24,920 bases of DNA from a virus. The DNA lies in IMG/VR virus record IMGVR_UViG_3300020390_000128, positions 1-24,920 of that record; one strand, given 5' to 3'. Of this stretch, positions 6,254-21,031 are shown piece by piece. The position numbers and the translations under genes were made by a program. Positions within the stretch are counted from its first letter, which is position 1, and each line of letters begins with the position of its first letter. Below the pieces are notes generated by a model that worked only from the letters and a program-made list of their open reading frames with translations, searched no databases and was not told the origin of the DNA.

Positions 6254-9200
6254 TTACGCCATTAAATCTAATGCCCACCAGTCATTGTCACTGACGGCTG
6301 TTGCTTCACCTGCTAGAACGAGCCTAGCTAAATCAAGATCACCGATTACGTCTGCATGACCTTTCTTAAATTGGGTATTTGATGGCATGGTTCTGCCATC
6401 AACTTTTGCGTATGAGGTAGCCAAGTCGTAAAGCTCACGCGCATATTGATAATGTTTTTCGGTTGGGGTTGTTCTTAGTGCTGGTCGCTGTTTGCTAAAA
6501 TCAAACTTTTCAAAGCTATGTAGTTCGCGGCCTTGCATGTGATACACACGGCTACCAATAACCACAGTTCCGCCATCATTAAGCTGATCGATATGCTCTG
6601 GTGCAAAGTCATAAAGGCTGGTTTTAACAGGCGCAGATTCTTGCTGACCCGCTAATTTTTGCTGTTTTTGCATTTCTGTATGCGCAATGTATTCGACCGA
6701 TTCCTTGCGATATTCAATTAACTGCTTTTCTTCATCTAATACGAGTAAATTACCGTCTCGTATTAGGTAAATTTGGCTGTTTCGCCTGATCCTTTTACCC
6801 GCCACTAGATCCTTTTTAACCTTAGCGATCTGTTTTTTGGTAAACCCGATCATATCTAGCAATAATTCGTCTCTATCACCCACGGTGCAAGGCGTACAAT
6901 TATTCCCACTAGACCAAGATAGGTCGGCTGCGCCGACGTTGTTAGCATCCTGCCCGCCATTTACAGCGGTGTTGTCGTTAGCTGCGGCAGTACCAATAAT
7001 TTGTTTTTGCCAGGTGTGAACGCGGGTAATCAAAGTGCAAGGTTCGTGAAGGTCTTCAATGCCTTTAATACGCTTAACGCATTCAGCATATTGATTGCCA
7101 TATTCGGTATATTCATAAACAGGTTTGAAACGCGCATTTCGGCCAATGCCAAAGCCGCCCATTAAAGTAACAAAGGTTTTAAAGCTGCCCTCGTCCGCAG
7201 CTTTGCGGATTTGCTCAAGCTCTTCATTACCTTGTATTGCTTCACGCACACGGCGCAGCTCACGCCAAATAGTAATGGCGGGTGACTTTTGAAATTGGAA
7301 TTGACGAATGCCCCATGTGCTTGCCCATGCTTTAACAGGGTTAACAAGGGCTGACTGGGTAAACTTCTCGCCTGTTTCTGCATCGTATTCGTTGGCAAGA
7401 CCAAAGCCGTCTATATTCTTACTGACGTACTTAGCAATATAGGCTGCTGCACCGCCAATTCGTTTACCATCTTTGCCGATTTTTGCAGGCTCCATTTTCA
7501 TGGCGGTATAACGTGGGCTACTTGGGAAATAGTTTTTAACCGGCGCTTTGGTGTAAATGCCTTTTGATTTATTTAGGCCCCAAATTTTACGGTTATGCTT
7601 GTACTTCCTGCGGTAATGTTTACGGTTTTTAAAGCGCTGAAAAAATACCTCACGATCATCGCGAGTAAAATATCGGCGTAAAAGGTGGTTAACTTTGTCG
7701 TAGTACCTAGCGGGCATCCATAAAAGCATGTGCCAGTGGGTGCAACCATCTGCATGAGGTTCGGCTACGCGCACCCCAAAATACGGTATTTCTAGACGAT
7801 CTAATTTTGCCCTTGCTTGTGAATACAGCTTGTTTAAATAATTGCTTGCATCTTTTGGGGTTGAGCCATCCCATTTTGGGGAATTAGCATGAAAACGACT
7901 AGGTGCAGTAATATTGTAAAAACCGCCTACATAGCCCATTTCATCGGCTAGTTCTTCTGTTTCACGTATGCGTAGCATTAACTCATTACGCATGTTTTCA
8001 GGGTTAGCAATACCTGCTTCAACCGCTTTCATTAGCGATATAACATCGCTTTGTTCGTTAACTAATTCAAGGCTTTCAAGGTATCGTTTGCCACGTTCAC
8101 GATCAGCTTTATATTCATTAAGCGCTTGGTGTGAGCAATAAGCATTAATGCCTTTTCGTACTGTTTTAGTGCCTTTCTTTTTGTCGTATTTTGCAAACAA
8201 GTCTTTGCCAACTTCACCTGTTGCTATTTCTAAATGCTCAAGGTAACGGCGGCGAATATTTTTTAATTTACGTCCCCACCATTTGTAACATTGCGCTTTT
8301 AACAAACTTACTTCTGCATCTGGCTCTGTTAAGTAAATGCCTTTTTCAGCAGCAAAAAGAGTCACACCAAAGTTTTCAGCATACTGGCTGATCACATCAA
8401 ACTTATCTAAAGCGCCCCAGCTTGGGTTCTCTATGCCTAAGTCGTTAAGTATTTCGGTTACTTCACGGGCCAGCACTTCAGCATGTTTTTTGGTTTTGTC
8501 TACATTCGCTAAAATATGCCAAGGTAAAGGCATGCTGTCGGTTATTTGTTTAAGAATGGTAAGGCGAGGCTTAAGCGTTTTAATAGTACGTAATAGCCAC
8601 TGGTTAGCATTACGATGATCACGAATGCTCTCGAATATATTCGTATTTGTTGGTTTTTTAGTTGTGCCGTCAAATTGGTATAACTCAGCTGATTGCGAAG
8701 CAATTCTATCGGTGTATTGCTCTGTGTTTTCATTGCGCTTTTGTTTAAAGCGCTTAATGCTAGGTTCGTACTTATCAATAAAGCGTTTAGCCACACGCAT
8801 TTGTAATGGCTTTGGTACTTTGCTTAAGCATTTATATACAAATTCTTTTTCTGCAGTATCGTCGATTGCATCTATGATCGAGCGCACAGAGCTTGTTACA
8901 TCACCACCTACCAATTTTTGTAAAAATGCAGTTTCATCACTAGATGGTTGCATCTTTTTTTGTGCTAATACTTCACGCTGCTTTTCTGTAAAGCTAAGTG
9001 TTTCAGCTGTTCTACGCACAAAGCTAGCTTGAATACTCGCCTTGCGGTTAGAGCTAATAAGGTCACGCACAATGTAATTATGGTGATTATTGTTATGCAC
9101 TTTTTTAAGTGCTGACTTGGCAGGTTTGCTTAATTTAAAAAAGCTTACATCGATGCGATATTCTGCATTTTTAAGCACATCATAAAACCAAGCGTTTGCT

Positions 9201-9415
9201 TCATCGCTTGGGTTTATGGGCTCGTCTTTATACCAAACATCATTATGTGTCTGTACTTTAGCTAAATATTGCTTAGCCATCTTGTACTGCATGTAAGGAG
9301 TAAAACGGCTTAAGCCGCTTAGTAAGGTTTCCTTATGCTCAACGTTATCAACGGCTTCAACCATTGTTGAAACCGCTGTAATAACGTCGAAGTTAAGAGT
9401 TGGCCATAGAGCCAT
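6254..9415 (-). CDS. P2 gpA-like HUH replication initiator (rolling-circle endonuclease)
   Basis: This 1053-residue protein is clearly longer than P2 gpA (761). The HUH metal-binding motif is THWHMLLW with His560 and His562. The two active-site tyrosines are Tyr659 and Tyr663 in AAYIAKYVSKN, four residues apart as in P2 gpA. It would nick the phage origin, attach covalently to the 5' end and start rolling-circle replication with host Rep helicase. Regions before about 450 and after about 750 have no motif I can name and account for the extra length. The ATG overlaps the preceding stop (TAATG), indicating coupling. The origin cannot be placed by eye; in P2 it lies inside this gene. Confidence 0.92.
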   Translation of the reverse strand: MALWPTLNFDVITAVSTMVEAVDNVEHKETLLSGLSRFTPYMQYKMAKQYLAKVQTHNDVWYKDEPINPSDEANAWFYDVLKNAEYRIDVSFFKLSKPAKSALKKVHNNNHHNYIVRDLISSNRKASIQASFVRRTAETLSFTEKQREVLAQKKMQPSSDETAFLQKLVGGDVTSSVRSIIDAIDDTAEKEFVYKCLSKVPKPLQMRVAKRFIDKYEPSIKRFKQKRNENTEQYTDRIASQSAELYQFDGTTKKPTNTNIFESIRDHRNANQWLLRTIKTLKPRLTILKQITDSMPLPWHILANVDKTKKHAEVLAREVTEILNDLGIENPSWGALDKFDVISQYAENFGVTLFAAEKGIYLTEPDAEVSLLKAQCYKWWGRKLKNIRRRYLEHLEIATGEVGKDLFAKYDKKKGTKTVRKGINAYCSHQALNEYKADRERGKRYLESLELVNEQSDVISLMKAVEAGIANPENMRNELMLRIRETEELADEMGYVGGFYNITAPSRFHANSPKWDGSTPKDASNYLNKLYSQARAKLDRLEIPYFGVRVAEPHADGCTHWHMLLWMPARYYDKVNHLLRRYFTRDDREVFFQRFKNRKHYRRKYKHNRKIWGLNKSKGIYTKAPVKNYFPSSPRYTAMKMEPAKIGKDGKRIGGAAAYIAKYVSKNIDGFGLANEYDAETGEKFTQSALVNPVKAWASTWGIRQFQFQKSPAITIWRELRRVREAIQGNEELEQIRKAADEGSFKTFVTLMGGFGIGRNARFKPVYEYTEYGNQYAECVKRIKGIEDLHEPCTLITRVHTWQKQIIGTAAANDNTAVNGGQDANNVGAADLSWSSGNNCTPCTVGDRDELLLDMIGFTKKQIAKVKKDLVAGKRIRRNSQIYLIRDGNLLVLDEEKQLIEYRKESVEYIAHTEMQKQQKLAGQQESAPVKTSLYDFAPEHIDQLNDGGTVVIGSRVYHMQGRELHSFEKFDFSKQRPALRTTPTEKHYQYARELYDLATSYAKVDGRTMPSNTQFKKGHADVIGDLDLARLVLAGEATAVSDNDWWALDLMA

Positions 9416-11109: not shown

Positions 11110-11421
11110 ATGTCAAACCCAATCTTGAGCGACTGCATAAAAGCACTTTCAAGCAGCCTTACACCAGCAAATGGCCTCACCCATCCTGTTGACGACTCAA
11201 AAGCAAAATGCTTATTTAAAGCACTCCACAAAAAAGGCATTGCCTTAAGTGAAGATGAAGTACTCGCGCTGGCTATCGAAAATAATTGGCCTGAAAAACA
11301 CGCCAAAAAACTGGCCGACATAGCACAGCGCATTAACGATGGGCGCCCCGTTAAAATTGTTCGCCCAATAAGCTGGGGTGAAACCACTGCTGATAAAATC
11401 ATTCAATCTCACCAGGGTTAA
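11110..11421 (+). CDS. Unknown small protein, faintly DUF1889/YoaC-like
   Basis: The ATG at 11110, with AAGGA 6 bases upstream, gives 103 residues. The block KAKCLFKALHKKGIALSEDE followed by VLALAIENNW recalls E. coli YoaC (DUF1889), which has a similar AKxIFKxLxxxGV...A...W layout. That is from memory and uncertain. The gene is oriented against its neighbours: it diverges from the AlpA-like gene, and its 3' end overlaps the tail of the leftward gene at 11399 by 23 bp. It therefore needs its own promoter. The function is unknown. Confidence 0.65.
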   Translation: MSNPILSDCIKALSSSLTPANGLTHPVDDSKAKCLFKALHKKGIALSEDEVLALAIENNWPEKHAKKLADIAQRINDGRPVKIVRPISWGETTADKIIQSHQG

Positions 11422-11967: not shown

Positions 11968-12021
11968 TTGACCAAAACAACTAAAAGTTGTGATAATCTC
12001 CCTATTACACAGATTATGTGT
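11968..12021 (+). promoter_or_regulatory. cI promoter with operator-like dyads
   Basis: TTGACC (11968-11973) and GATAAT (11992-11997) are 18 bp apart. Between the two boxes lies the dyad ACAACT-AAA-AGTTGT (11977-11991). Downstream is ACACA-GATTA-TGTGT (12007-12021). A repressor bound between the boxes would block transcription, while one at the second site could block elongation. Which protein binds which dyad cannot be read from the sequence. The transcript would include cI and probably the two following membrane-protein genes. Confidence 0.55.
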
Positions 12022-12048: not shown

Positions 12049-12663
12049 ATGGATATTGCAAATCGCGTGAAAAAGCTAAGGAAAGCTTTAAATCTTACAC
12101 AATACCAATTGGCGGAACTGGTTGGCGTCGCACAAAACTCAATTCAAAAATTAGAAAAAGGTGAGACCAAGAACCCACGTAATATTGAATCCCTAGCACG
12201 AGCGTTAAAATGCACACCTGAATATCTACAGTTTGGTATTGGTGAAATAGATAACGCCACTTCTGCATCCGTAGCTAAGCACCAATTACCACTAATTAGT
12301 TGGGTTCAAGCAGGCACTTGGTCGGATATTGCTGAGGTGAACCCGCTCGATGCTGAAAGGTTTTTATGTCCGGTAAATTGCAGTGAACGTTCGTTTGTAC
12401 TCCGTGTACAAGGTATCAGTATGGAGCCGAAATTTAATGATGGTGATTTAATCTTTGTGGACCCTGAAGCAGAATGCATTCACGGTTCGTATGTTGTTGC
12501 CCGCTTAGATGATAACAACCAAGCCACATTCAAACAGCTGATCATCGAAGGCAATCAAAAATTCCTCAAAGCCGCCAACCCCAACTGGCCAGAACAACTC
12601 ATCCCCATCAATGGCAACTGCACGTTGGTAGGCAAAGTGATTTTTACAGGTAAATCTCTGTAA
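12049..12663 (+). CDS. CI-type prophage repressor with LexA-like self-cleavage domain
   Basis: The ATG at 12049 follows GGAG by 6 bases; the frame is open to a TTG at 11968, but that lies in the promoter. The 204-residue protein has an XRE helix-turn-helix (about 6-60, LTQYQLAELVGVAQNSIQKL) and a C-terminal S24 peptidase. The cleavage site is Ala88-Gly89 in WVQAGTW. The catalytic dyad is Ser124 (GISMEP) and Lys162 (ATFKQL), 38 residues apart against 37 in LexA. RecA filaments would trigger self-cleavage, so the prophage should be SOS-inducible. P2's own C repressor lacks such a domain, so immunity here is lambda/LexA-like. Confidence 0.93.
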   Translation: MDIANRVKKLRKALNLTQYQLAELVGVAQNSIQKLEKGETKNPRNIESLARALKCTPEYLQFGIGEIDNATSASVAKHQLPLISWVQAGTWSDIAEVNPLDAERFLCPVNCSERSFVLRVQGISMEPKFNDGDLIFVDPEAECIHGSYVVARLDDNNQATFKQLIIEGNQKFLKAANPNWPEQLIPINGNCTLVGKVIFTGKSL

Positions 12664-12688
12664 CGTTAGATAATTAAAGGACTAATAT

Positions 12689-13867
12689 ATGTTTTTTGAA
12701 AAAGAAGAAAATTCTAACACTATAAGAACTCTATTGTCTGTACTTTCGAGTCAAGACACAAAGGCAATGCTTAAAACTCAATTTAATGTCACAAAAGAGT
12801 TCTTTGATTTATTGTATGATTCATTAGCAATAATTAAGGAAATATCAAATAACCCTAGCATCTGGGATTCATTAGTAATTCCTGGAACAAAAAATTTAAC
12901 TGAGTTTATTGGAATATGTAAGTATTTTGGTAATTTAAATGATGTAGCTACTGATTTGCAAAATCCAATAGAAGTTCTATACCAATGTTCATTAAGAATT
13001 TTATTCGAAGCAGATTTCAAACTATGCCTGCAACCTAAATTTTCTGAGCTTTTTGAAAACTCAACATTTGAAAAGATTAAAATTAACGCAAGTCATAACT
13101 CAAAAAATTTGAATTATAGTGCTAACTTGAGAAGAGGTATTGATGAGCTTATATTTTCTGTTCCTTATGATGTTTGTAAAAGCTTTTTTAACTCTGAAGA
13201 AATAGAGCGATTCTCAAAGTTCGATGAAAAAAAGAAAGAAGCAAGCCAAACTCTACAGCAAATTCAAGAGTATTCTGATAATCTAAATATTCAGATAACT
13301 GAACTCGATAATAAATTAGAAGTAAGACAAGTCAAAGTTGATAAATTAGAGGAGACACTAAAAAAACAACAATCACGGCTTAACTTTGCTGGCCTATCTG
13401 AAGGTTTTTATAACTTATTAATACAAAAAAGTAGTGAAGCAGAATCTCTATATAAATGGTTAGTATCCATGGGTATCATAATGGTAATCCCACTCATATG
13501 TATTATTTTTGGTTGGCTTCCAGATTCAATACTGAAAGAAAATACCTCCCTCAATTATGTGATTAAAATAGTGCCCTTTATTTCTTTAGAAATAATACTG
13601 ATCTATTTTTTTAGAGTAATTCTACAAAATTACAAATCTGTTAAAGCTCAGGTTTTACAAATAGAGTTAAGACGCACACTTTGCCAATTTATTGAAAGTT
13701 ATACAGATTACTCGAATGATGTTAAAGGGGATAAAGAAACAAATCCATTAGAGAAATTCGAGAACTTAATTTTTAGTGGAATTATCAGCGACTCTGAGAA
13801 TCTACCAAGTACTTTTGATGGTATGGACCAAATAACTAAATTGCTTACTTCACTTAAAGGGAAATAA
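12689..13867 (+). CDS. Unknown membrane protein with coiled coil, in line with cI
   Basis: This is a 392-residue protein. A soluble alpha-rich N-terminal domain (1-180) is followed by a coiled coil (about 180-232). Two membrane helices come next (about 257-276, WLVSMGIIMVIPLICIIFGW, and 291-311), then an amphipathic region and a polar C-terminal tail. AAAGGA lies about 8 bases before the ATG. The gene starts 25 bp after cI with no terminator between and ends 4 bp before the putAbiC-like gene, so the three probably form one lysogenic transcript. It is visibly more AT-rich than the phage core genes, which suggests separate acquisition. I do not recognise a family. Position and partner suggest superinfection defence, but nothing in the protein proves it. 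Confidence 0.8.
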   Translation: MFFEKEENSNTIRTLLSVLSSQDTKAMLKTQFNVTKEFFDLLYDSLAIIKEISNNPSIWDSLVIPGTKNLTEFIGICKYFGNLNDVATDLQNPIEVLYQCSLRILFEADFKLCLQPKFSELFENSTFEKIKINASHNSKNLNYSANLRRGIDELIFSVPYDVCKSFFNSEEIERFSKFDEKKKEASQTLQQIQEYSDNLNIQITELDNKLEVRQVKVDKLEETLKKQQSRLNFAGLSEGFYNLLIQKSSEAESLYKWLVSMGIIMVIPLICIIFGWLPDSILKENTSLNYVIKIVPFISLEIILIYFFRVILQNYKSVKAQVLQIELRRTLCQFIESYTDYSNDVKGDKETNPLEKFENLIFSGIISDSENLPSTFDGMDQITKLLTSLKGK

Positions 13868-13871
13868 AAAT

Positions 13872-14912
13872 ATGAAAAGGATGATCATTATAACTTTTTG
13901 TTTGGCAGCTTTAGCGGCAGCCACTGCACTCGGGCTTTACGCTATTAAATTCGGATTTGGCTTTGCTTCAACTATTGGTGATTGGGGCTCGGTAGGTGAC
14001 TTCTTCGGTGGTGTCCTCAACCCCACATTTGCATTGCTTAGCTTAATTTTAATTGCCTATACATTAATGCAAAATAAGAAAGCTCTAGAGCAAAGTGAAA
14101 AAGCAATACAACAAGGTACAGAAGCTATAGAGCAAAATGAAAGGGCTTTACAAGTCAGCAATCAGGAACTAGCTCTTACTCGCAATGAACTTGCCAACTC
14201 AGCAACCGCGTTAGAAGAACAGGCAAAATTACTTTCTGTACAAAGCTTTGAAACCACTTTCTTCAATATGCTAGAGCTACATGGTCGTCTTCTGGACAAG
14301 TTTAATTACAATTATAGTGATTCTCATGATGAAATAAGTGAAAAACTTAGTATCCCCTACTTTGAGACAATTGCCGGTAACGCTCTAAATGGCACACAAA
14401 ATTTAGATAAATTACTCTCATCAATAAAATCCGCACACGAGGGAGTAGGTGATAAGTCATCAATCGTCAATATTTACAACACGTTTTACCTTTACGAAAA
14501 CAGAGTATTTGGAAGCTATTTTAGAAACCTTTATCAAATACTAAAACTAATAAAAACAAGTATCACGACATATCAAGAACAAAAAAAATACAGTAATATT
14601 TTGAGAGCTCAACTATCAAATCAAGAGCTCACACTTCTGCTTTTAAACTGTTTATGCTCTAGTATTGATAATGGTCAATTCAAGAAATTAGTAATTTACT
14701 TCGAGCTACTTGAGCATCTAGATATAACTTACAAAAAAGATAAAGATCACATCACTACTTTCACAATCAATAACCCAACATTACGACTAACTAGCAGTGA
14801 AATTGATCAGTACTTATCACGCGATTCAAATGACAGGCTCCTACGCTCTGCTTTTGGGCAAAACAATCAGATACTAGAATATTGTAAGTTTAGAAACATG
14901 GTTAATAAATAA
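13872..14912 (+). CDS. Putative phage abortive-infection (putAbiC-like) membrane protein
   Basis: This is a 346-residue protein. Membrane helices lie at about 5-25 and 45-66 around the loop DWGSVGDFFGGVLNP (37-51). A coiled coil follows at about 67-125 with repeating EQSEKAIQ, EQNERALQ and QELALTRNELA segments. A soluble C-terminal domain then starts at SFETTFFNMLELH. This arrangement (WGxxGDFxGGxLNP after a first helix, then coiled coil, then FFNML) matches my knowledge of the Pfam putAbiC family, named for similarity to lactococcal AbiC. Biochemical activity is unknown. It follows the coiled-coil membrane protein by 4 bp and is closed by a strong bidirectional terminator. Confidence 0.75.
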   Translation: MKRMIIITFCLAALAAATALGLYAIKFGFGFASTIGDWGSVGDFFGGVLNPTFALLSLILIAYTLMQNKKALEQSEKAIQQGTEAIEQNERALQVSNQELALTRNELANSATALEEQAKLLSVQSFETTFFNMLELHGRLLDKFNYNYSDSHDEISEKLSIPYFETIAGNALNGTQNLDKLLSSIKSAHEGVGDKSSIVNIYNTFYLYENRVFGSYFRNLYQILKLIKTSITTYQEQKKYSNILRAQLSNQELTLLLLNCLCSSIDNGQFKKLVIYFELLEHLDITYKKDKDHITTFTINNPTLRLTSSEIDQYLSRDSNDRLLRSAFGQNNQILEYCKFRNMVNK

Positions 14913-14915
14913 CAT

Positions 14916-14944
14916 AAAAAAGCCCGCATTTTGCGGGCTTTTTT
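14916..14944. terminator. Bidirectional intrinsic terminator
   Basis: The 13-base arms AAAAAAGCCCGCA (14916-14928) and TGCGGGCTTTTTT (14932-14944) are perfect inverted repeats with a 3-base loop. The GC-rich stem has a T-run on each strand, so it ends both the cI/putAbiC transcript and the convergent gene at 14943. That gene's stop codon lies within the T-run. Confidence 0.95.
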
Positions 14945-15758
14945 AAGCTTTTTTAACTGTTAAATAATCTAACCCTTTAGGCTTTATGAACTTCTTCCCT
15001 CTTTCAGAAATATACATATTACCCAGTACCAATACGCCTGCTCCTGCTAAAGCCTCTTCGTCTTCCAGCTTAAAGCGGTTATAAAATGATTGTACTAACT
15101 CACTTTCAATAAGCACACTGACAGAACTACGACCACCTGAGTTCAGCCAAAGATTACCATAACTGTCCTGCTGCGCATCCGCTAGAGCGCCCCAATAACC
15201 TTGGAACTCATACTCATATTTTTTTACCACACCAGAAAACTTAACAAAGAAATCTCTAACAGGAGAATTAACCTCTTCAATGTTAATGACTTGTTTTGAA
15301 TTTCTAAAATCTTTAGACCGAATAAGATTTCTTAGCAATGAGCTTAAACGACGATGTGAATGAGCATTTGGGCGAGTACCTTGACCAACATGACGACCTT
15401 TCCCTTGGGTACCTGTGTCATTATCATCTGGGTTTATGTCTATATTTGTTTTTGGTGTTGCACCAAAGTTCAAATCAATTTCTATCACTTGCCCTGGGTT
15501 ATTCTGAATATCTTCAATATCCGAATCTCCCTCTTCTCGGGTAGAGTCTGGTGCAGCTAATTCACACCCTTCATTATGAGGGGTCGCACCGAAACACGCA
15601 GCTTGTCCACTCTTAGACTCTTTTCTGAAGTAGGCATCTGATCCGCAACTAGTGCAAACCAAATTTCTTCTTTTTTCTGTTAATTCATCAACAGGTAATT
15701 TAGCAAAATTAACTGCTAAGTAAGTTTTACCGTCGATTGTGCATTTAGCAATATCCAT
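14943..15758 (-). CDS. Unknown protein with N-terminal zinc-ribbon-like motif
   Basis: This 271-residue protein starts at the ATG at 15758, with AAAGG about 10 bases upstream. Residues 1-70 contain CTSC (35-38), then CFGATPHNEGC with further Cys and His residues, resembling the CoiA-type N-terminal zinc module. Residues about 70-130 are a disordered Asp/Gly/Asn-rich linker. The C-terminal domain (KYEYEFQGYWGALADAQQDS, GNLWLNSGG, FIKPKGLDYLTV) has strand patterns that might be an OB fold, which would suit nucleic-acid binding. It is a single-gene unit between two terminators on the strand opposite the abortive-infection pair. The function is unknown. Confidence 0.65.
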   Translation of the reverse strand: MDIAKCTIDGKTYLAVNFAKLPVDELTEKRRNLVCTSCGSDAYFRKESKSGQAACFGATPHNEGCELAAPDSTREEGDSDIEDIQNNPGQVIEIDLNFGATPKTNIDINPDDNDTGTQGKGRHVGQGTRPNAHSHRRLSSLLRNLIRSKDFRNSKQVINIEEVNSPVRDFFVKFSGVVKKYEYEFQGYWGALADAQQDSYGNLWLNSGGRSSVSVLIESELVQSFYNRFKLEDEEALAGAGVLVLGNMYISERGKKFIKPKGLDYLTVKKA

Positions 15759-15785
15759 AAATATAATACCTTTAAACTTAAATTA

Positions 15786-15811
15786 GACTAAAAAGCCCAC
15801 GGGTGTGGGCT
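15786..15811 (-). terminator. Intrinsic terminator after the 49-residue gene
   Basis: Arms AGCCCAC (15794-15800) and GTGGGCT (15805-15811) enclose a 4-base loop. Read on the minus strand, the stem is followed by TTTTAG. It lies 25 bp beyond the stop of the small gene at 15836 and isolates it from the gene starting at 15758. Confidence 0.8.
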
Positions 15812-15835
15812 CAAATATGCAGACCTACAGGTTTA

Positions 15836-15985
15836 CTAAGCGCGGACTAAAAATGCCCAAGCTTGGTAACCATACTCATGAGCATCAAGACGTTTCTTTG
15901 ATTTGCCACGAACTTTGCGATAGCGACAAAAAATCCACTTGAACCCCTTTGGAGCAGGTTTGTTAACTAATTTTTTTAACTTCAC
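15836..15985 (-). CDS. Small basic protein with GTG start, 49 residues
   Basis: GTG at 15985-15983 starts a 49-codon frame ending at TAG 15838-15836. The sequence is protein-like: KPAPKGFKWIFCRYRKVRGK, then KKRLDAHEYGYQAWAFLVRA. It has aromatic and basic residues spread as in a small folded domain, and it is strongly cationic. AAGGAGG lies about 10 bases upstream. A closer ATG (15989) in another frame ends after 8 codons. Its own promoter may be TTTAGA-N18-CATAAT on the minus strand near 16065-16035, and a terminator follows. I believe similar short proteins occur in related marine prophages, but I cannot confirm it here. The function is unknown. Confidence 0.6.
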   Translation of the reverse strand: MKLKKLVNKPAPKGFKWIFCRYRKVRGKSKKRLDAHEYGYQAWAFLVRA

Positions 15986-16080
15986 TCATACAACACCTCC
16001 TTACCAGCAGAAATTGTTTCCTTGAGTTTTTGGTATTATGGTGCTAAATTCACCTGTGTCTAAATACTAAAACGCAAGGT

Positions 16081-16110
16081 CTTGATGCTGCTCGGCTCAT
16101 CAAGCTTTTT
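16081..16110 (+). terminator. Rightward intrinsic terminator
   Basis: Arms CTTGATG (16081-16087) and CATCAAG (16098-16104) enclose a 10-base loop and are followed by CTTTTT (16105-16110). The T-run faces right although no rightward gene precedes it, so it implies an unannotated plus-strand transcript. Confidence 0.6.
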
Positions 16111-16117
16111 GTTTGTA

Positions 16118-16152
16118 ACTCTAAATGAGTTGGCGCTCATTTAGAGTTTTTT
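16118..16152 (+). terminator. Second rightward intrinsic terminator
   Basis: Arms ACTCTAAATGAG (16118-16129) and CTCATTTAGAGT (16136-16147) are perfect over 12 bp with a 6-base loop, followed by a T-run to 16152. On the minus strand the stem is not followed by U, so it is a poor end for the ImmA transcript that stops at 16154. Confidence 0.75.
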
Positions 16153-16153
16153 A

Positions 16154-16690
16154 CTACCTAAAAAATTTACTCTGATAGGTAGCCGCTTCTAGAGAAACTC
16201 CACATAGGTCTGCTATTTCATGTGGTGTTTTCCCTATCAACAAATCTTTTTTTGTGTATGGCATCAATAATTCACCACCAAAACAATTGGCTTGCCATTC
16301 ACTGTCTTCGAATGCTCTCAGTTTTTCATCTGACCTAGCTAAACTAACTTCTAGGTTAGCATGCAATATATAGTGTCCTAACTCATGTGCAGCAGTCATC
16401 CTATCTCGTCCACAGCCATTTAACGCTCGTTCGTAAACATCTTCTCTTAGCATTATTGTTTTTTGGTCAGGTATAGTTAACCCATGATTGCCTCTCATCA
16501 CTGATTCTGGCAGAACTTCAAAATTAAACTCATCATCAAGTTTAGGTAATGTAAATTCCAGCATTTCAATAATAGGCAAGTATAGTGGACTACAACCCTG
16601 TTTTTTTTCTAATGTTAAACGCACAATAGAAGCAGCTTCACGAATAGTTTGTCTAGTTTCTGGTGGTACTTTAATAGGATAACCGCTCAA
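16154..16690 (-). CDS. ImmA/IrrE-family metallopeptidase
   Basis: The 178-residue protein has the zinc motif HELGH (102-106) with the third ligand Glu131 in EDSEWQANCF, followed by GGELLMP, which is diagnostic of the ImmA/IrrE (DUF955) family. These proteases cleave a partner XRE repressor and thereby relieve repression. The start is a TTG at 16690, supported by AAGGAG 6 bases upstream; no other start precedes the core domain. It is the second gene of a two-gene operon with the XRE regulator ending 10 bp upstream, the usual ImmR-ImmA arrangement. Confidence 0.9.
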   Translation of the reverse strand: MSGYPIKVPPETRQTIREAASIVRLTLEKKQGCSPLYLPIIEMLEFTLPKLDDEFNFEVLPESVMRGNHGLTIPDQKTIMLREDVYERALNGCGRDRMTAAHELGHYILHANLEVSLARSDEKLRAFEDSEWQANCFGGELLMPYTKKDLLIGKTPHEIADLCGVSLEAATYQSKFFR

Positions 16691-16700
16691 ATCACACTCC

Positions 16701-17051
16701 TTATTTCTCTAATAGTCTCTTTAAGTTTTCATAATCTTCATTATTTAAGTCATCAAAATTTCTTGCAAATAGAAGTGCAGCTTCTCTTGCTGTTTGATTT
16801 TTACCTTGTAAATTAACTTCTACGGAAGTTTGCGACAGCTCAGCATTCTTACGTAGCTCTTTTTCCATTTCAGTACTCGGCTTAAGCTGATTAATAATCT
16901 GCTCTAAAATATCACTAGTAACGGGTCTCTTACCTGTTTCTATTGCCGAGATATAAGATGAAGTTTTACCTAGCAATTCAGCTAAGTTTTTTAATGATAT
17001 CTCTAGGTCAATCCTCAGTTTCCGTACCGATTTTCCGAAAGGACTTAACAT
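16701..17051 (-). CDS. XRE-family repressor, ImmR-like partner of the protease
   Basis: The ATG at 17051 is supported by GGGAG 7 bases upstream; an open frame extends to 17159 but encodes an implausible hydrophobic leader. The 116-residue protein has a helix-turn-helix with LRIDLEISLKNLAELLGKTS and SYISAIETGKRPVTSDILEQ (about 12-55), then a helical C-terminus ending NDEDYENL-like. It should bind the dyads in the divergent region and hold back the AHH nuclease genes. The ImmA protease immediately downstream would cleave it on an unknown signal. Confidence 0.88.
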   Translation of the reverse strand: MLSPFGKSVRKLRIDLEISLKNLAELLGKTSSYISAIETGKRPVTSDILEQIINQLKPSTEMEKELRKNAELSQTSVEVNLQGKNQTAREAALLFARNFDDLNNEDYENLKRLLEK

Positions 17052-17082
17052 ATCTATTCTCCCAACCATGATGTAGTAATGA

Positions 17083-17242
17083 GTGAAATTCACCCAACAT
17101 AAAAAATAGTAACTTAACAAAGAAAAGAAATCAACAGAAATCTGATGATTTATTTTCAAAAAAAAGAAAACGCTATGAAATCAGTATATTAAAAGCATGT
17201 TGAAGTTCTAATTGCTTCAATTATCATATTCTGAAAGAATAT
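17083..17242. promoter_or_regulatory. Operator-like dyads between XRE and AHH nuclease genes
   Basis: Three dyads lie in the divergent intergenic region: GTGAA-A-TTCAC (17083-17093) near the XRE gene, TTGAAG-N9-CTTCAA (17200-17220), and ATATTCT-GAA-AGAATAT (17226-17242) before the nuclease gene. TTGAAG and TATCAT (17222-17227), 16 bp apart, may be the rightward promoter, in which case the second dyad covers its -35 to spacer region. Binding is inferred. Confidence 0.5.
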
Positions 17243-17270
17243 AGGTACACGTTATTTAAAAGGATTTATA

Positions 17271-17867
17271 ATGCGCCAACCATACGAGGAAGTAACGGTT
17301 CAAGAACTTGAACAAGATATTCTGACCGTTACTGGTGACCCAGTTCACGCCAAAGCCAAGGCTCAAGCCTTTTCTATTTACTACCGCAATGTTGTTATTG
17401 ATTCAGTACGATTTCGCCAAGGGCGCATTACTGAAGATGATTTAAAATACTCTCGCTCTATACAATGGGAGCACATGAAGTCCCATTCAAAGAAACTTGC
17501 TGAAAACATGAAAAAAGCAGGCAGAGGTAAACGACCAAGTAATACTGCTGCCCATCATATTGTTTCTTGGAACGATCAGCGAGCTGGTAGAGCAAGATTG
17601 CGCTTAGCTGCATTCGGGATTGATATTGATAACGAAGCAAATGGGGTGTACTTACCGCTTCATAAAGCACATGTGCCGATGAAGTCTCTACCTAATGCCT
17701 ATGCCCACAGTACAATACACACTGAAAAATATTACTTAAATGTCGAATTTTTAATTGAAGAATCCGTCATGGAAGGTTTGGGGCACAGAGGTATTATAGA
17801 TACACTAAGGGATATAGCCGATGACCTTGAAGATGGTCAGTTTCCTTTAAAGTCTTTAATTGAATAA
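17271..17867 (+). CDS. AHH-family HNH/ENDO VII-type nuclease, likely toxin
   Basis: This is a 198-residue protein. The N-terminal 88 residues are helical and unrecognised. The nuclease starts at NTAAHHIV (Ala94, His95, His96), continues with FGIDIDNEANGVYLP (Asn124, Gly125) and ends with HSTIHTEKYY (His146, His150, Tyr154). This is the full signature of the AHH nuclease family, known mainly as the C-terminal toxin of secreted polymorphic toxins. There is no signal peptide, membrane helix or secretion domain, so it should act inside the cell, cutting DNA or RNA. AAAGGAT precedes the ATG. An Imm11-like gene follows 19 bp later, as expected for toxin and immunity. Confidence 0.88.
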   Translation: MRQPYEEVTVQELEQDILTVTGDPVHAKAKAQAFSIYYRNVVIDSVRFRQGRITEDDLKYSRSIQWEHMKSHSKKLAENMKKAGRGKRPSNTAAHHIVSWNDQRAGRARLRLAAFGIDIDNEANGVYLPLHKAHVPMKSLPNAYAHSTIHTEKYYLNVEFLIEESVMEGLGHRGIIDTLRDIADDLEDGQFPLKSLIE

Positions 17868-17886
17868 CCAGTAGCAGAGTATATAA

Positions 17887-18477
17887 ATGCCAAATATAGA
17901 TAAAGTTTATCGTTTCGTTATCGACCCAGATAAATACCTTTACTTAAATGAAACAGGCTTTGAACAAACCATGCAGCTTAGCGAGGGCCAGCTTCTCAAC
18001 TTTGATGGCTCTTCAATGCGTGATAACTGGCGCACTTTAGGTATTAACTGGCTGATTCATGAATCAAATAAAGATTTAGACCTAGAAATTCCAGACATTG
18101 CAGGTTTGGGAGCAACCTCTTTTGTTCTATCACAAAAAGCTAAAACAATTTTAGAGCCTTATTTAGGCGACAACGTTGAATATTTAGAATGCGACTTAAA
18201 TGGTGAGCTTTGGTTTGCTATGAATGTATTAGGGTTTGAGGATGCAGTAGACCACGAACTTACTGAATTTAACTATAATAGACGCAGCCAAATTAGCAGA
18301 ACAAGACGCTTTAAGCGCTTAGTGATGGACAAAAAGAAAATCAATAACTCAGCTATCTTTAGAACCAAAGAGACAACGCTTAGGTACTTTACTACTGACG
18401 CTGAAAATAGCTTCTATCGATTAGTAAAAGAAAATAACTTAACAGGGTTAGAGTTTACAGAGGTTGAGGCAAAGTAG
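17887..18477 (+). CDS. Imm11-like (DUF1629) immunity protein
   Basis: This 196-residue protein has no signal peptide. It shows the Imm11 layout: an N-terminal YRFVIDPDKYLYLN segment, a central DNVEYLECDLNGELWFAMNV ladder before a conserved Asp-rich turn, and a C-terminal SAIFRTKETTLRYF leading to NNLTGLEFTEV. Such proteins neutralise polymorphic toxins. The gene directly follows the AHH nuclease, so it most likely binds and inhibits that enzyme. The family match is by remembered pattern, and the pairing with the nuclease gives it weight. A terminator-like hairpin lies 240 bp downstream. Confidence 0.78.
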   Translation: MPNIDKVYRFVIDPDKYLYLNETGFEQTMQLSEGQLLNFDGSSMRDNWRTLGINWLIHESNKDLDLEIPDIAGLGATSFVLSQKAKTILEPYLGDNVEYLECDLNGELWFAMNVLGFEDAVDHELTEFNYNRRSQISRTRRFKRLVMDKKKINNSAIFRTKETTLRYFTTDAENSFYRLVKENNLTGLEFTEVEAK

Positions 18478-18512
18478 TGATTACCATAACTGAATAAGTC
18501 TTAATTTAATCT

Positions 18513-18668
18513 GCCAAACTCAAACTTTATAGTTGAATCAAATTTTACAGTGAATAGCCGATTTGCTCAGAAAGCGACCGTTCCGATATAAATTATTTAT
18601 ACCAAAAATGAGTTAACGAAAATCCTTTATAGGCCTACTTTGAAAAATAACCAGATATTGAGTTTGGC
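18513..18668. repeat. Non-coding stretch bounded by 11-bp inverted repeats
   Basis: GCCAAACTCAA (18513-18523) and TTGAGTTTGGC (18658-18668) are perfect inverted repeats enclosing 134 bp without a coding frame. They could be the ends of a small non-autonomous element, though no clear target duplication flanks them. The whole 18478-18880 interval has no gene; besides this repeat it holds a terminator and the left edge of the cassette. Confidence 0.45.
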
Positions 18669-18720
18669 TTAAAATAATAGTTAATTGATTTCCATCCTGT
18701 GTAGTATGCGCATATATTCA

Positions 18721-18751
18721 AGAAAATAAGCGATGAGCGCATTTTCTTTTT
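18721..18751 (+). terminator. Terminator downstream of the AHH/Imm11 genes
   Basis: AGAAAATAAGCG (18721-18732) pairs with CGCATTTTCT (18738-18747) over 10 bp with a 2-base bulge and a 5-base loop, followed by TTTT. It would end the rightward AHH/Imm11 transcript before the cassette. Confidence 0.6.
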
Positions 18752-18880
18752 CTGAATACCGTTAGTCTCAATAAAAATTTTATAGTTGGCAATGCATTAC
18801 GTTATTTGTTAAAAATAGATTTTTTAATACATGAGCGTGACGTTGGCAGAAAGATGCGCGACGCGCGCACTATAAAATTG

Positions 18881-19708
18881 TTATATGCAAGTTCCCAAAC
18901 TAATCGAGTACAGTATGAAAAAAAAATATTGGTTTATTAGTGTGTCAATCCTTGTGATCTTCATTCCTATAGGGTTGTACTCTTTTAATTTTGGTCTCGG
19001 GTTATGGCAGGATCCGAATGACTGGGGAAGCTTGGGTAGTTACTTAAGTGGGATTTATTCTCCGATTTTAAGCTTTGGTACATTATTAATTCTATGGAGT
19101 CAATTTCAGCGGCAAAAAGAGACAGAAAAAGATAATATGGAGCTAGAAATAGCGCGCAGGCGCTTTGAGTTCTCTGTTAATGTGCTGGAACGTTTGAAGA
19201 TAATGGAAGGAGAAATAAGGTCTGGATTTGAAAACTTTAGCGAATTAAGTAGCTCTTCTAAGGATTCTATTAAAAAAATATATGACATATACTACGACTG
19301 GGTTTGCGGTCACGTTATCGCTATAAGAAAACCTGGTTGTAGTCAAATACCTATGACCCTTGCAGGAAAAGATAAGATAACATCAAGCTTTGAGTTGTAT
19401 ATATTATGTTTGGATCAACTTAAACAATCTTCGGGTAATGTTGAAGTCAAAGAAATCTATCAGCAAGCAAAACTACTAGGTCATACATATTATTATTCAG
19501 AATTACTTAAAAAAGCTGATGCAAAAAAAGAGCATTTTTATTAAGGATTCTAGATTAGGTTTAGTAAGTACTGGCGAGTGCTTTTTGCATATAACAAACT
19601 ATTTAAAAGTGATTCGCAACGCGTGGCACTTTCACTATGCGTTGCGTCTAGTGTTTAAGGTGGTATGCAGAGGCATTGGTATTGCGCTGCTCACACCTTA
19701 ACAGGGTG
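18881..19708 (+). mobile_element. Single integron-like gene cassette
   Basis: GTTATATGC (18880-18888) resembles the left junction of Vibrio-type cassettes. One gene follows at once, and a VCR-like attC ends the unit at GGGTG-TTA (19704-19711). Cutting after G in each GTT gives an 828-bp cassette with one gene and almost no spare DNA, the usual cassette economy. No integron integrase or second cassette is visible. It seems to be an isolated insertion into the prophage cargo zone. Confidence 0.6.
18915..19544 (+). CDS. Cassette-borne membrane protein with putAbiC-like N-terminus
   Basis: The ATG at 18915 (GAG 8 bases upstream) is preferred to the ATG at 18885, which lies in the cassette junction. 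The 209-residue protein has membrane helices at about 5-25 and 43-62 around the loop DPNDWGSLGSYLSGIYSP. A polar, charged helix follows (RQKETEKDNMELEIARRRFE), then a cytoplasmic helical domain. The first 75 residues resemble the equivalent part of the protein at 13872 (FGxG, DWGSxG, G, P at the same spacing), while the C-terminal domains differ. It may be a defence effector or sensor; the function is not known. Confidence 0.75.
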   Translation: MKKKYWFISVSILVIFIPIGLYSFNFGLGLWQDPNDWGSLGSYLSGIYSPILSFGTLLILWSQFQRQKETEKDNMELEIARRRFEFSVNVLERLKIMEGEIRSGFENFSELSSSSKDSIKKIYDIYYDWVCGHVIAIRKPGCSQIPMTLAGKDKITSSFELYILCLDQLKQSSGNVEVKEIYQQAKLLGHTYYYSELLKKADAKKEHFY

Positions 19709-19711
19709 TTA
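19592..19711 (+). repeat. VCR-like attC recombination site
   Basis: The 120-bp imperfect palindrome starts TAACAAAC and ends GGGTGTTA, so its ends TAACA and TGTTA pair. Inside, CAACGCGTGGCACTTTC closely follows the Vibrio cholerae repeat (CAACGCGTGGC). TTGCGCTGCTCACACCTTAA near the right end follows the VCR right end. The length matches the 120-130 bp of VCRs. Integron integrases recombine such sites as folded single strands. Confidence 0.75.
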
Positions 19712-19795
19712 CAGAATAAATACTATAACACATTTTTGTCCAAAAACGAGTTTACCTAACCCTTCACTCTTTGCAAACCTTTAACAATACTCAGT

Positions 19796-21031
19796 TTAGT
19801 TTATGGCACAATATATAAAGTCTTCCCACACCTCAATGCTTTGTATTTTCTCTTTCATATAGTCGTACCTATCATAATGCACACTTGATACGTCAAACTT
19901 GTTGTGCTGTTGGAGTATGTCGCGGTTTATTTTGTCTATACCCGCTTTGCCCATAAGTGTTTTACATGTTCGGCGCAGGTCACGTGGGTTAAATGGTTCC
20001 ATTTCATGTTTTTCGCACCAACGCAATATTGCCATTCTTATTGTAGATACATGTGCGGTGGCTGTTGGGTCGTCGCGATGCGGGAACATTTGCCCTGCCT
20101 TACCAGCTTGTTGCATTAGCTCTTTGATGATTGGTATTGCGATTTCGCATAGAGGCACTATGTGATCGCCCCGCTGTTTTACTTTGATACGATTTGCGGG
20201 GATGGTGAAAGTTTTGTTCTTTAAGTCAAAGTCACTTACGTAAGAGCCATAAACCTCGTTCACCCGTTGACCACCGAGTAGTAATGCTAGCTTTATATAT
20301 TGATGGGTGTAATAAGGTAGGTCATCAGCATTCCACACTTTTTTAAGTTCGACTTCACTTAACCAGCGCTCGCCTTTGTTTTTTGGCGTTTCAAAATTAA
20401 TGTCTCTGATGAAATTGGTTTTAATATCGTAAAGGTTAGGTTTTTTGTATTGCTCTGGTGAGTTATCAAAATCTATCGCAAATTTTAAGATGCTCATTAA
20501 TGTACTACGAACCAAGCGCGCTTGTTCTTTTGCTCCACGATTATAAACGCGGTAAATAATGTCGCGAGCCATGTCTATTGTGAACTCGTCAGGCATTAAG
20601 TCTTTTGCAATAAAAGGGGTGATGTTTCTTTTTATTAGTTTTTCAGTTCGGCCTATTGTTGACTCAGCCCAGCGAGTACTTATAAATACATTAAAGTCAT
20701 CAAGCATTTCTAACATAGTACGCTTTGCTGATGATACAAACTCCGCTTTTTGTTGTTCTAGTTTATGTTCTTGCGGGTCGATATTGTTGCTTAACAATAC
20801 TGATATTTCAGCATGTTTACTACGCGCTGTTTTGAGGTCAACTACGGGGTAATTACCAAGACCAATTACTTTGCGTTTATCGTTTAAATGATATTGCACG
20901 CGAAACGTTTTAGTGCCTGATTCGCTAACCCTTATTTGTAAACGCCCTTCCCCGTAGTTACCTGATTCAGTTAATACGTAACGTTTATCTTTTGCTTTAA
21001 GCGCTTTAATTGATTTGTCTGTAAAGTTCAT
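19796..21031 (-). CDS. Prophage tyrosine integrase, P4/DUF4102 type
   Basis: This is a 411-residue protein. The N-terminal DUF4102 arm-binding domain (1-90) contains LQIRVSESGTKTFRVQYHLN and VIGLGNYPVV. A core-binding domain follows at about 100-200. The catalytic domain has Arg256 (GGQRVNE), PRDLRRT with catalytic Arg353, His376 and the nucleophile Tyr386 in HYDRYDY. It integrates and excises the prophage. It is of the P4 type rather than the P2 Int type, and its start faces the host side with repeats directly upstream. Arg replaces the usual His at 350, which I believe is common in this marine subfamily. No good ribosome site precedes the ATG. Confidence 0.93.
   Translation of the reverse strand: MNFTDKSIKALKAKDKRYVLTESGNYGEGRLQIRVSESGTKTFRVQYHLNDKRKVIGLGNYPVVDLKTARSKHAEISVLLSNNIDPQEHKLEQQKAEFVSSAKRTMLEMLDDFNVFISTRWAESTIGRTEKLIKRNITPFIAKDLMPDEFTIDMARDIIYRVYNRGAKEQARLVRSTLMSILKFAIDFDNSPEQYKKPNLYDIKTNFIRDINFETPKNKGERWLSEVELKKVWNADDLPYYTHQYIKLALLLGGQRVNEVYGSYVSDFDLKNKTFTIPANRIKVKQRGDHIVPLCEIAIPIIKELMQQAGKAGQMFPHRDDPTATAHVSTIRMAILRWCEKHEMEPFNPRDLRRTCKTLMGKAGIDKINRDILQQHNKFDVSSVHYDRYDYMKEKIQSIEVWEDFIYCAIN

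Follow-up and report, generated by a model that had tools for sequence, protein, structure and literature searches.

A putAbiC/AbiP-like membrane protein and an unnamed coiled-coil partner behind the cI repressor of a P2-like prophage: a candidate abortive-infection module

Closest described systems

PdpSau, encoded by prophages of S. aureus, is a membrane-anchored, structurally AbiP-like protein whose action in abortive infection involves effects on membrane potential and permeability (PMC10127798). Repressor-linked pairs of the Rex type provide a second precedent. In lambda RexAB, RexABpp (PMC12894663) and Sbash gp30/31 (PMC6426596), two genes lie by the repressor, one of the partners is a membrane protein, and a sensor and membrane-effector logic has been proposed. 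The third precedent is one of position, as a defence hotspot has been described between cI and the integrase gene of P2-related Vibrionaceae phages (Rousset et al. 2022, PMC9122126).

The locus described here carries two adjacent genes, P0002 and P0003, and shares features with each of these systems. Like PdpSau, P0003 is a prophage-encoded, membrane-anchored protein, and each has its own likeness to AbiP, that of PdpSau being described in PMC10127798; PdpSau, however, is a single gene from a Gram-positive host and has one transmembrane (TM) helix. P0003 is related to putAbiC and the lactococcal AbiP and AbiC proteins by its PF16872 domain (above cut-off), its matches to both PADLOC models and an N-terminal anchor like that of AbiP, but it has a two-helix hairpin and a long coiled coil, and its gene is preceded by one of another family. 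The pair lies directly behind cI, as RexAB does. RexAB consists of a soluble DNA-binding protein and a four-TM protein, whereas P0002 and P0003 each show two hydrophobic peaks, and no Rex family occurs among their Pfam and NCBIfam matches. Rex membership was rejected due to the lack of RexA/RexB homology and of the soluble-plus-four-TM architecture.

The prophage and its cargo interval

The window, meaning the whole stretch of 24,920 nucleotides that was analysed, corresponds to one IMG/VR virus record in full length and covers part of a marine prophage of the P2-like type. Its landmarks are:

127–1128: scaffold/protease GPO
1260: terminase
3014: portal
6254–9415: gpA replication protein
12664–19795, unstranded: cI-to-integrase cargo interval of the defence-hotspot type, containing the pair
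19796–21031: integrase

The comparison covered 34 relatives of cI found in viral contigs, together with the Pseudoalteromonas genomes examined that carry cI. The interval behind cI is variable among them, and the pair occupies it in the window, L001 (=L132) and L002 (=L151). Other relatives carry RelA/SpoT genes (L134 and L183, gaps of 14 and 12 bp, E about 1e-17 to 1e-18), a TIR/SEFIR gene close behind cI (L191), an AAA ATPase with a subtilase 439 bp behind it (L133), or acyltransferase genes (L184 and L192), in one case followed by decayed putAbiC fragments. In L186, a solitary putAbiC gene, 29% identical to P0003 at the protein level, lies just behind cI on the opposite strand. The position, the kind of phage and the exchangeable cargo, which includes defence-type genes, are those of the hotspot as the main text of PMC9122126 presents it. 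That hotspot belongs to K139-like phages of Vibrionaceae, and the same main text does not name the P0002/P0003 combination. The location of the pair in this published hotspot supports the original prediction of a candidate phage-defence pair.

A transcription unit shared with cI

The pair and its repressor are arranged as follows:

11968–11997, plus strand: promoter-like site of cI with an extended -10 (TTGACC-18-GATAAT, 10/12, TG before the -10), a consensus match only
12049–12663, plus strand: cI-type repressor (HTH_3 and Peptidase_S24), with its ATG at 12049 and its stop ending at 12663
12689–13867, plus strand: P0002, 392 amino acids, unnamed membrane coiled-coil family (phrog_9373)
13872–14912, plus strand: P0003, 346 amino acids, putAbiC protein with an N-terminal TM hairpin and a long coiled coil
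14915–14945, unstranded: bidirectional terminator-like stem-loop of 14 pairs found by terminator scan, ending the unit

All three genes run on the same strand, and the gaps of 25 bp (cI to P0002) and 4 bp (P0002 to P0003), like the coordinates, are exactly those first reported. A/G-rich, ribosome-binding-like stretches precede the start codons of both P0002 and P0003 (AAAGGACTAATATATG; AAAGGGAAATAAAAATATG). The terminator scan from cI through the end of P0003 returned none between the genes, in line with the original prediction of no internal terminator and a strong bidirectional one after the pair. Terminator-like stem-loops are found at the same place in L001 and L044, and in L043 behind the P0002 relative alone. 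Promoter-like matches across the region are at chance level (15 observed vs 16.1 expected), with the exception of the good cI site, which presumably serves the whole unit. The layout supports the proposed linkage of the pair to cI, and we infer a single transcript shared with the repressor. The GC content of P0002 (0.294) and P0003 (0.354) is below the 0.418–0.439 of the terminase, portal, gpA and cI genes. This confirms that the pair is more AT-rich than the phage core (29% and 35% vs 42–44%) and supports its description as acquired cargo.

P0003, a relative of AbiP

P0003 matches the Pfam family putAbiC (PF16872) with an E-value of 7.9e-21 and 74.8 bits, against a curated cut-off of 22. The domain is located as follows:

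14496–14729, plus strand: putAbiC domain PF16872, P0003 residues 209–286

The PADLOC models for AbiP (E=2.1e-9, residues 190–275) and AbiC (E=2e-5) are also matched, each covering part of P0003, and the AbiP model is matched by 18 of 28 members of the P0003 family. By profile, P0003 is a real putAbiC/AbiP relative, as had been proposed. Hydropathy peaks at residues 4–26 and about 44–66 predict an N-terminal membrane anchor. In the AlphaFold2 model (pLDDT 84), the TM hairpin is continuous with a long helix that extends to residue 142 and is followed by a helical domain with a small beta tail.

The putAbiC family is a common phage moron, mostly solitary, that occurs in tail-gene and lysogeny regions of phage contigs from both Gram-negative and Gram-positive hosts. 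Tandem putAbiC genes, two in each, were seen in viral contigs L106 and L113. The literature search found no paper naming putAbiC, or AbiP together with AbiC.

P0002, a member of phrog_9373

P0002 matches phrog_9373, a family annotated as of unknown function, with an E-value of 9.7e-59 over residues 90–391. Pfam, NCBIfam and PADLOC gave no named family, either for P0002 alone or across 88 relatives. The family of P0002 is unnamed and spread across the proteobacteria, and the library entry for phrog_9373 describes no mechanism, pairing or domain exchange. Its hydropathy peaks lie at residues 257–277 and about 290–311. The AlphaFold2 model (pLDDT 85.5) has a helical N-terminal domain, a helix at 178–280 running into TM1 and a second at 287–345, these long helices being continuous with the TM hairpin. 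Hydropathy and models thus agree with the earlier claim of a two-helix membrane hairpin and a coiled coil in both products.

The structure-based homology search that had been recommended was run on both proteins. In the PDB, neither model found a significant relative (best E 0.15 for P0002 and 0.31 for P0003), the hits being chance helical and coiled-coil similarities. A sequence search of solved structures gave chance matches of the same kind, and the viral structure library yielded one uncharacterised phage protein for P0002 (E=8e-5). A match of P0002 to JetC (PADLOC E=5e-5) was rejected as coiled-coil similarity, being found in 1 of 88 members. Likeness to SLATT-type 2TM effectors lies in topology alone; one of the 88 members matches PADLOC RTasSLATT at 2e-4, and the structure search gave one viral SLATT structure at E=3.2. 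Homology between P0002 and P0003 was also rejected, as the hhalign probability was 21% and covered the hydrophobic stretch only.

Relatives of P0002 were gathered from about 100 loci. Solitary copies occur in Yersinia P2-like phages, where they lie between gpV and gpS, and in Klebsiella phage-plasmids. Further solitary copies lie beside urease genes in Acinetobacter (L085, L087, L089, L092–L097) and beside his genes in Pasteurellaceae (L050, L070, L072, L076, L078).

Exchange of outer domains around a membrane core

The two proteins divide into segments with different histories:

12689–13303, plus strand: P0002 residues 1–205, helical domain that varies and is swapped among relatives (proposed sensor)
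13376–13864, plus strand: P0002 residues 230–392, coiled coil, TM hairpin and conserved cytosolic tail; conserved core
13956–14246, plus strand: P0003 residues 29–125, TM2 and coiled coil, conserved core (81–94% amino acid identity among four pairs; synonymous sites saturated in 4 of 6 comparisons)
14247–14501, plus strand: P0003 residues 126–210, variable segment (26–72% amino acid identity among four pairs)

Across the P0002 family, information content is 1.0–1.2 bits per column in the N-terminal half and 2.7–3.1 bits behind the hairpin. Through the rest of P0002 from 13357 onwards, the DNA of the window and L001 is 92–100% identical, against 40–65% in the N-terminal half. At the codon level, dS between these two is 0.06 for residues 230–392, while residues 1–205 are synonymous-saturated (pS 0.74). 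The same is seen between L002 and L044, with a dS of 0.17 for residues 230–392 and saturation of residues 1–205. Phylogenetic trees of the two halves conflict: the N-terminal half groups P0002 with L001, L043 and L044 without L002 (96/91), and the C-terminal half groups L002 with L044 (98/91). In both trees, P0002, L001, L002, L043 and L044 form one group. Selection alone was rejected as the cause of N-terminal divergence on two grounds: synonymous sites pass from saturation to near identity within a few codons, and the trees conflict.

In the L002–L044 comparison, the conserved block crosses the gene junction into P0003 (dS of 0 for residues 1–28 and 0.56 for residues 29–125) and stops at the soluble part, where residues 126–346 are saturated. 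Between the window and L001, the block is broken at the first TM helix of P0003 (residues 1–28, pS 0.65), which leaves L002–L044 as the one comparison in which it is continuous across the junction. From these codon patterns and trees, the N-terminal half of P0002 has evidently been exchanged by recombination, as has the soluble part of P0003 in one comparison, and the outer domains have recombined around a retained membrane core.

Distribution of the two families

The original prediction named co-occurrence of the pair in other prophages and islands as a check. Such co-occurrence does not hold as a general rule. Among 395 genomes of the order, 10 carry a P0002 relative, 21 a putAbiC gene, three both, and one the two side by side; of the 108 Pseudoalteromonas genomes, four have a P0002 relative and seven a putAbiC gene. 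Solitary copies make up nearly all of the P0002 relatives (roughly 100) and of the viral putAbiC genes (about 20). Adjacent pairs are confined to the window, L001, L002 and L044, which represent one Pseudoalteromonas-linked lineage, and looser pairings are seen in L047 (an intervening gene) and L082 (order reversed). On these counts, two single-gene morons that usually occur apart have been combined in one lineage. Since the families are mostly found apart they are generally independent, and since both are mostly solitary a two-protein complex is not required.

This distribution bears on whether the two proteins cooperate at all. Each may be a single-gene defence moron that acts independently of the other, the two having only a slot and a transcript in common, a reading that is possible, if rather unlikely. 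It is consistent with the solitary P0002 relatives of Yersinia P2-like phages, Klebsiella phage-plasmids and sites beside housekeeping genes, with the solitary putAbiC genes of most viral contigs, and with L043, which keeps a P0002 relative without putAbiC. Against it, the junction of 1–4 bp between the genes is kept in all four loci despite strongly diverged alleles, and the L002–L044 block spans that junction, as expected for one unit. Short-range hitchhiking during recombination could, however, also produce this pattern. On the opposite reading, the two proteins would form a membrane immune complex, with the phrog_9373 protein as a swappable cytosolic sensor joined to its AbiP-like partner through the co-inherited TM and coiled-coil core; swaps of the sensor half and of the soluble half of P0003 would reset phage specificity while the core across the junction is kept. 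This reading is tentative and is likewise regarded as doubtful.

A moron with no role in defence, serving lysogeny regulation, host fitness or membrane physiology, is improbable. The hotspot does carry non-defence cargo such as the acyltransferases, and solitary P0002 relatives sit by urease and his genes, but the putAbiC/AbiP homology, the defence hotspot and the recombinational swapping of one domain point to conflict.

Cargo outside intact prophages

In two Pseudoalteromonas chromosomes, members of these families are found at sbcB. In Pseudoalteromonas sp. 3D05 (L044), the pair is preceded by a remnant of cI limited to its C-terminal part. This partial cI is joined to a duplicate of the sbcB promoter and first codons, in which 111 of 120 bases agree with the sbcB copy. 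The two copies of this duplication of about 120 bp (L044 7585–7704 and 11867–11986) flank the captured cassette. In P. distincta (L043), an eroded trace of cI (125 of 182 alignment positions; score 123 vs a shuffled maximum of 48) precedes an intact P0002 relative. Thus, at sbcB in these two chromosomes, cI is decayed, the P0002 relative is intact and putAbiC is intact once. Judged by these remains, the cargo outlasts the repressor after prophage decay. The duplication in L044 and the related insertion in L043 suggest that sbcB may be a capture site.

Proposed mode of action

The pair is put forward as a candidate lysogen-expressed, repressor-linked, AbiP-like membrane abortive-infection module with swappable sensor domains, a reading held with about even confidence. 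We infer defence, expression in the lysogen, sensing by the outer domains, depolarisation and complex formation. The pair would be made in the lysogen and, acting at the inner membrane, most likely makes infections by other phages abortive. Both hairpins are predicted to be N-in/C-in, leaving the bulk of each protein in the cytosol. The swapped outer domains would recognise a phage component, and this recognition would be relayed along the coiled coils to the hairpins. These may then depolarise or permeabilise the membrane, halting or killing the infected cell before phage is released, as reported for the AbiP-like PdpSau and for repressor-linked pairs of the Rex type. Of the two proteins, P0002 more probably does the sensing or regulating, with P0003 as its AbiP-like partner; each may act alone, because each family usually occurs without the other. 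The earlier suggestion of a sensor role for P0002 fits its variable N-terminal domain, and the role itself stays conjectural.

Superinfection exclusion would place the block earlier, with the proteins preventing genome injection at the inner membrane and the cell not killed. Membrane proteins expressed with a repressor resemble known exclusion systems, and swappable domains could set their specificity. Such a role is nonetheless quite improbable, as the loops predicted to reach the periplasm are very short, the larger part of each protein is predicted to be cytosolic, and the nearest characterised relatives, AbiP and PdpSau, act after DNA entry.

For the abortive-infection module, the natural mosaic of a shared core with different outer domains makes it possible to test directly where phage specificity is set, and whether AbiP-type proteins can work in a two-protein membrane complex. 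The phrog_9373 family of phage and chromosomal membrane proteins is widespread and, through the pairing with an AbiP-type protein at a defence hotspot, acquires a function that can for the first time be tested.

Other genes of the window and its relatives

A convergent gene for a 271-aa protein of no known family (14943–15758, minus strand) faces the pair across the shared terminator. At 16154–17159 (minus strand) and 17271–18477 (plus strand), genes for a CapP-like metallopeptidase (PADLOC E=1.5e-16) and a CapH-like HTH protein (1.5e-9) diverge from the gene for an AHH nuclease (PF14412, E=1.7e-13), which is followed by an Imm11 immunity gene (PF07791, 1e-8). In the same hotspot as the pair, a CapH/CapP-type switch may thus control a toxin-immunity pair with a nuclease as the toxin. 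A third protein of the interval (18885–19544, plus strand) has the N-terminal 'DWGSxGxxxxGxxxP' membrane hairpin of P0003 (BLASTP E=6e-10 over 64 residues) without the putAbiC domain, and the P0003-type hairpin looks like a shared, movable anchor. Before cI, a small ORF on the same strand as the repressor lies opposite to the early genes in the window (11111–11421, plus strand) and in L002 (4220–4573); a similar one is present in L107, the L002 ORF and the L107 similarity being judged by eye.
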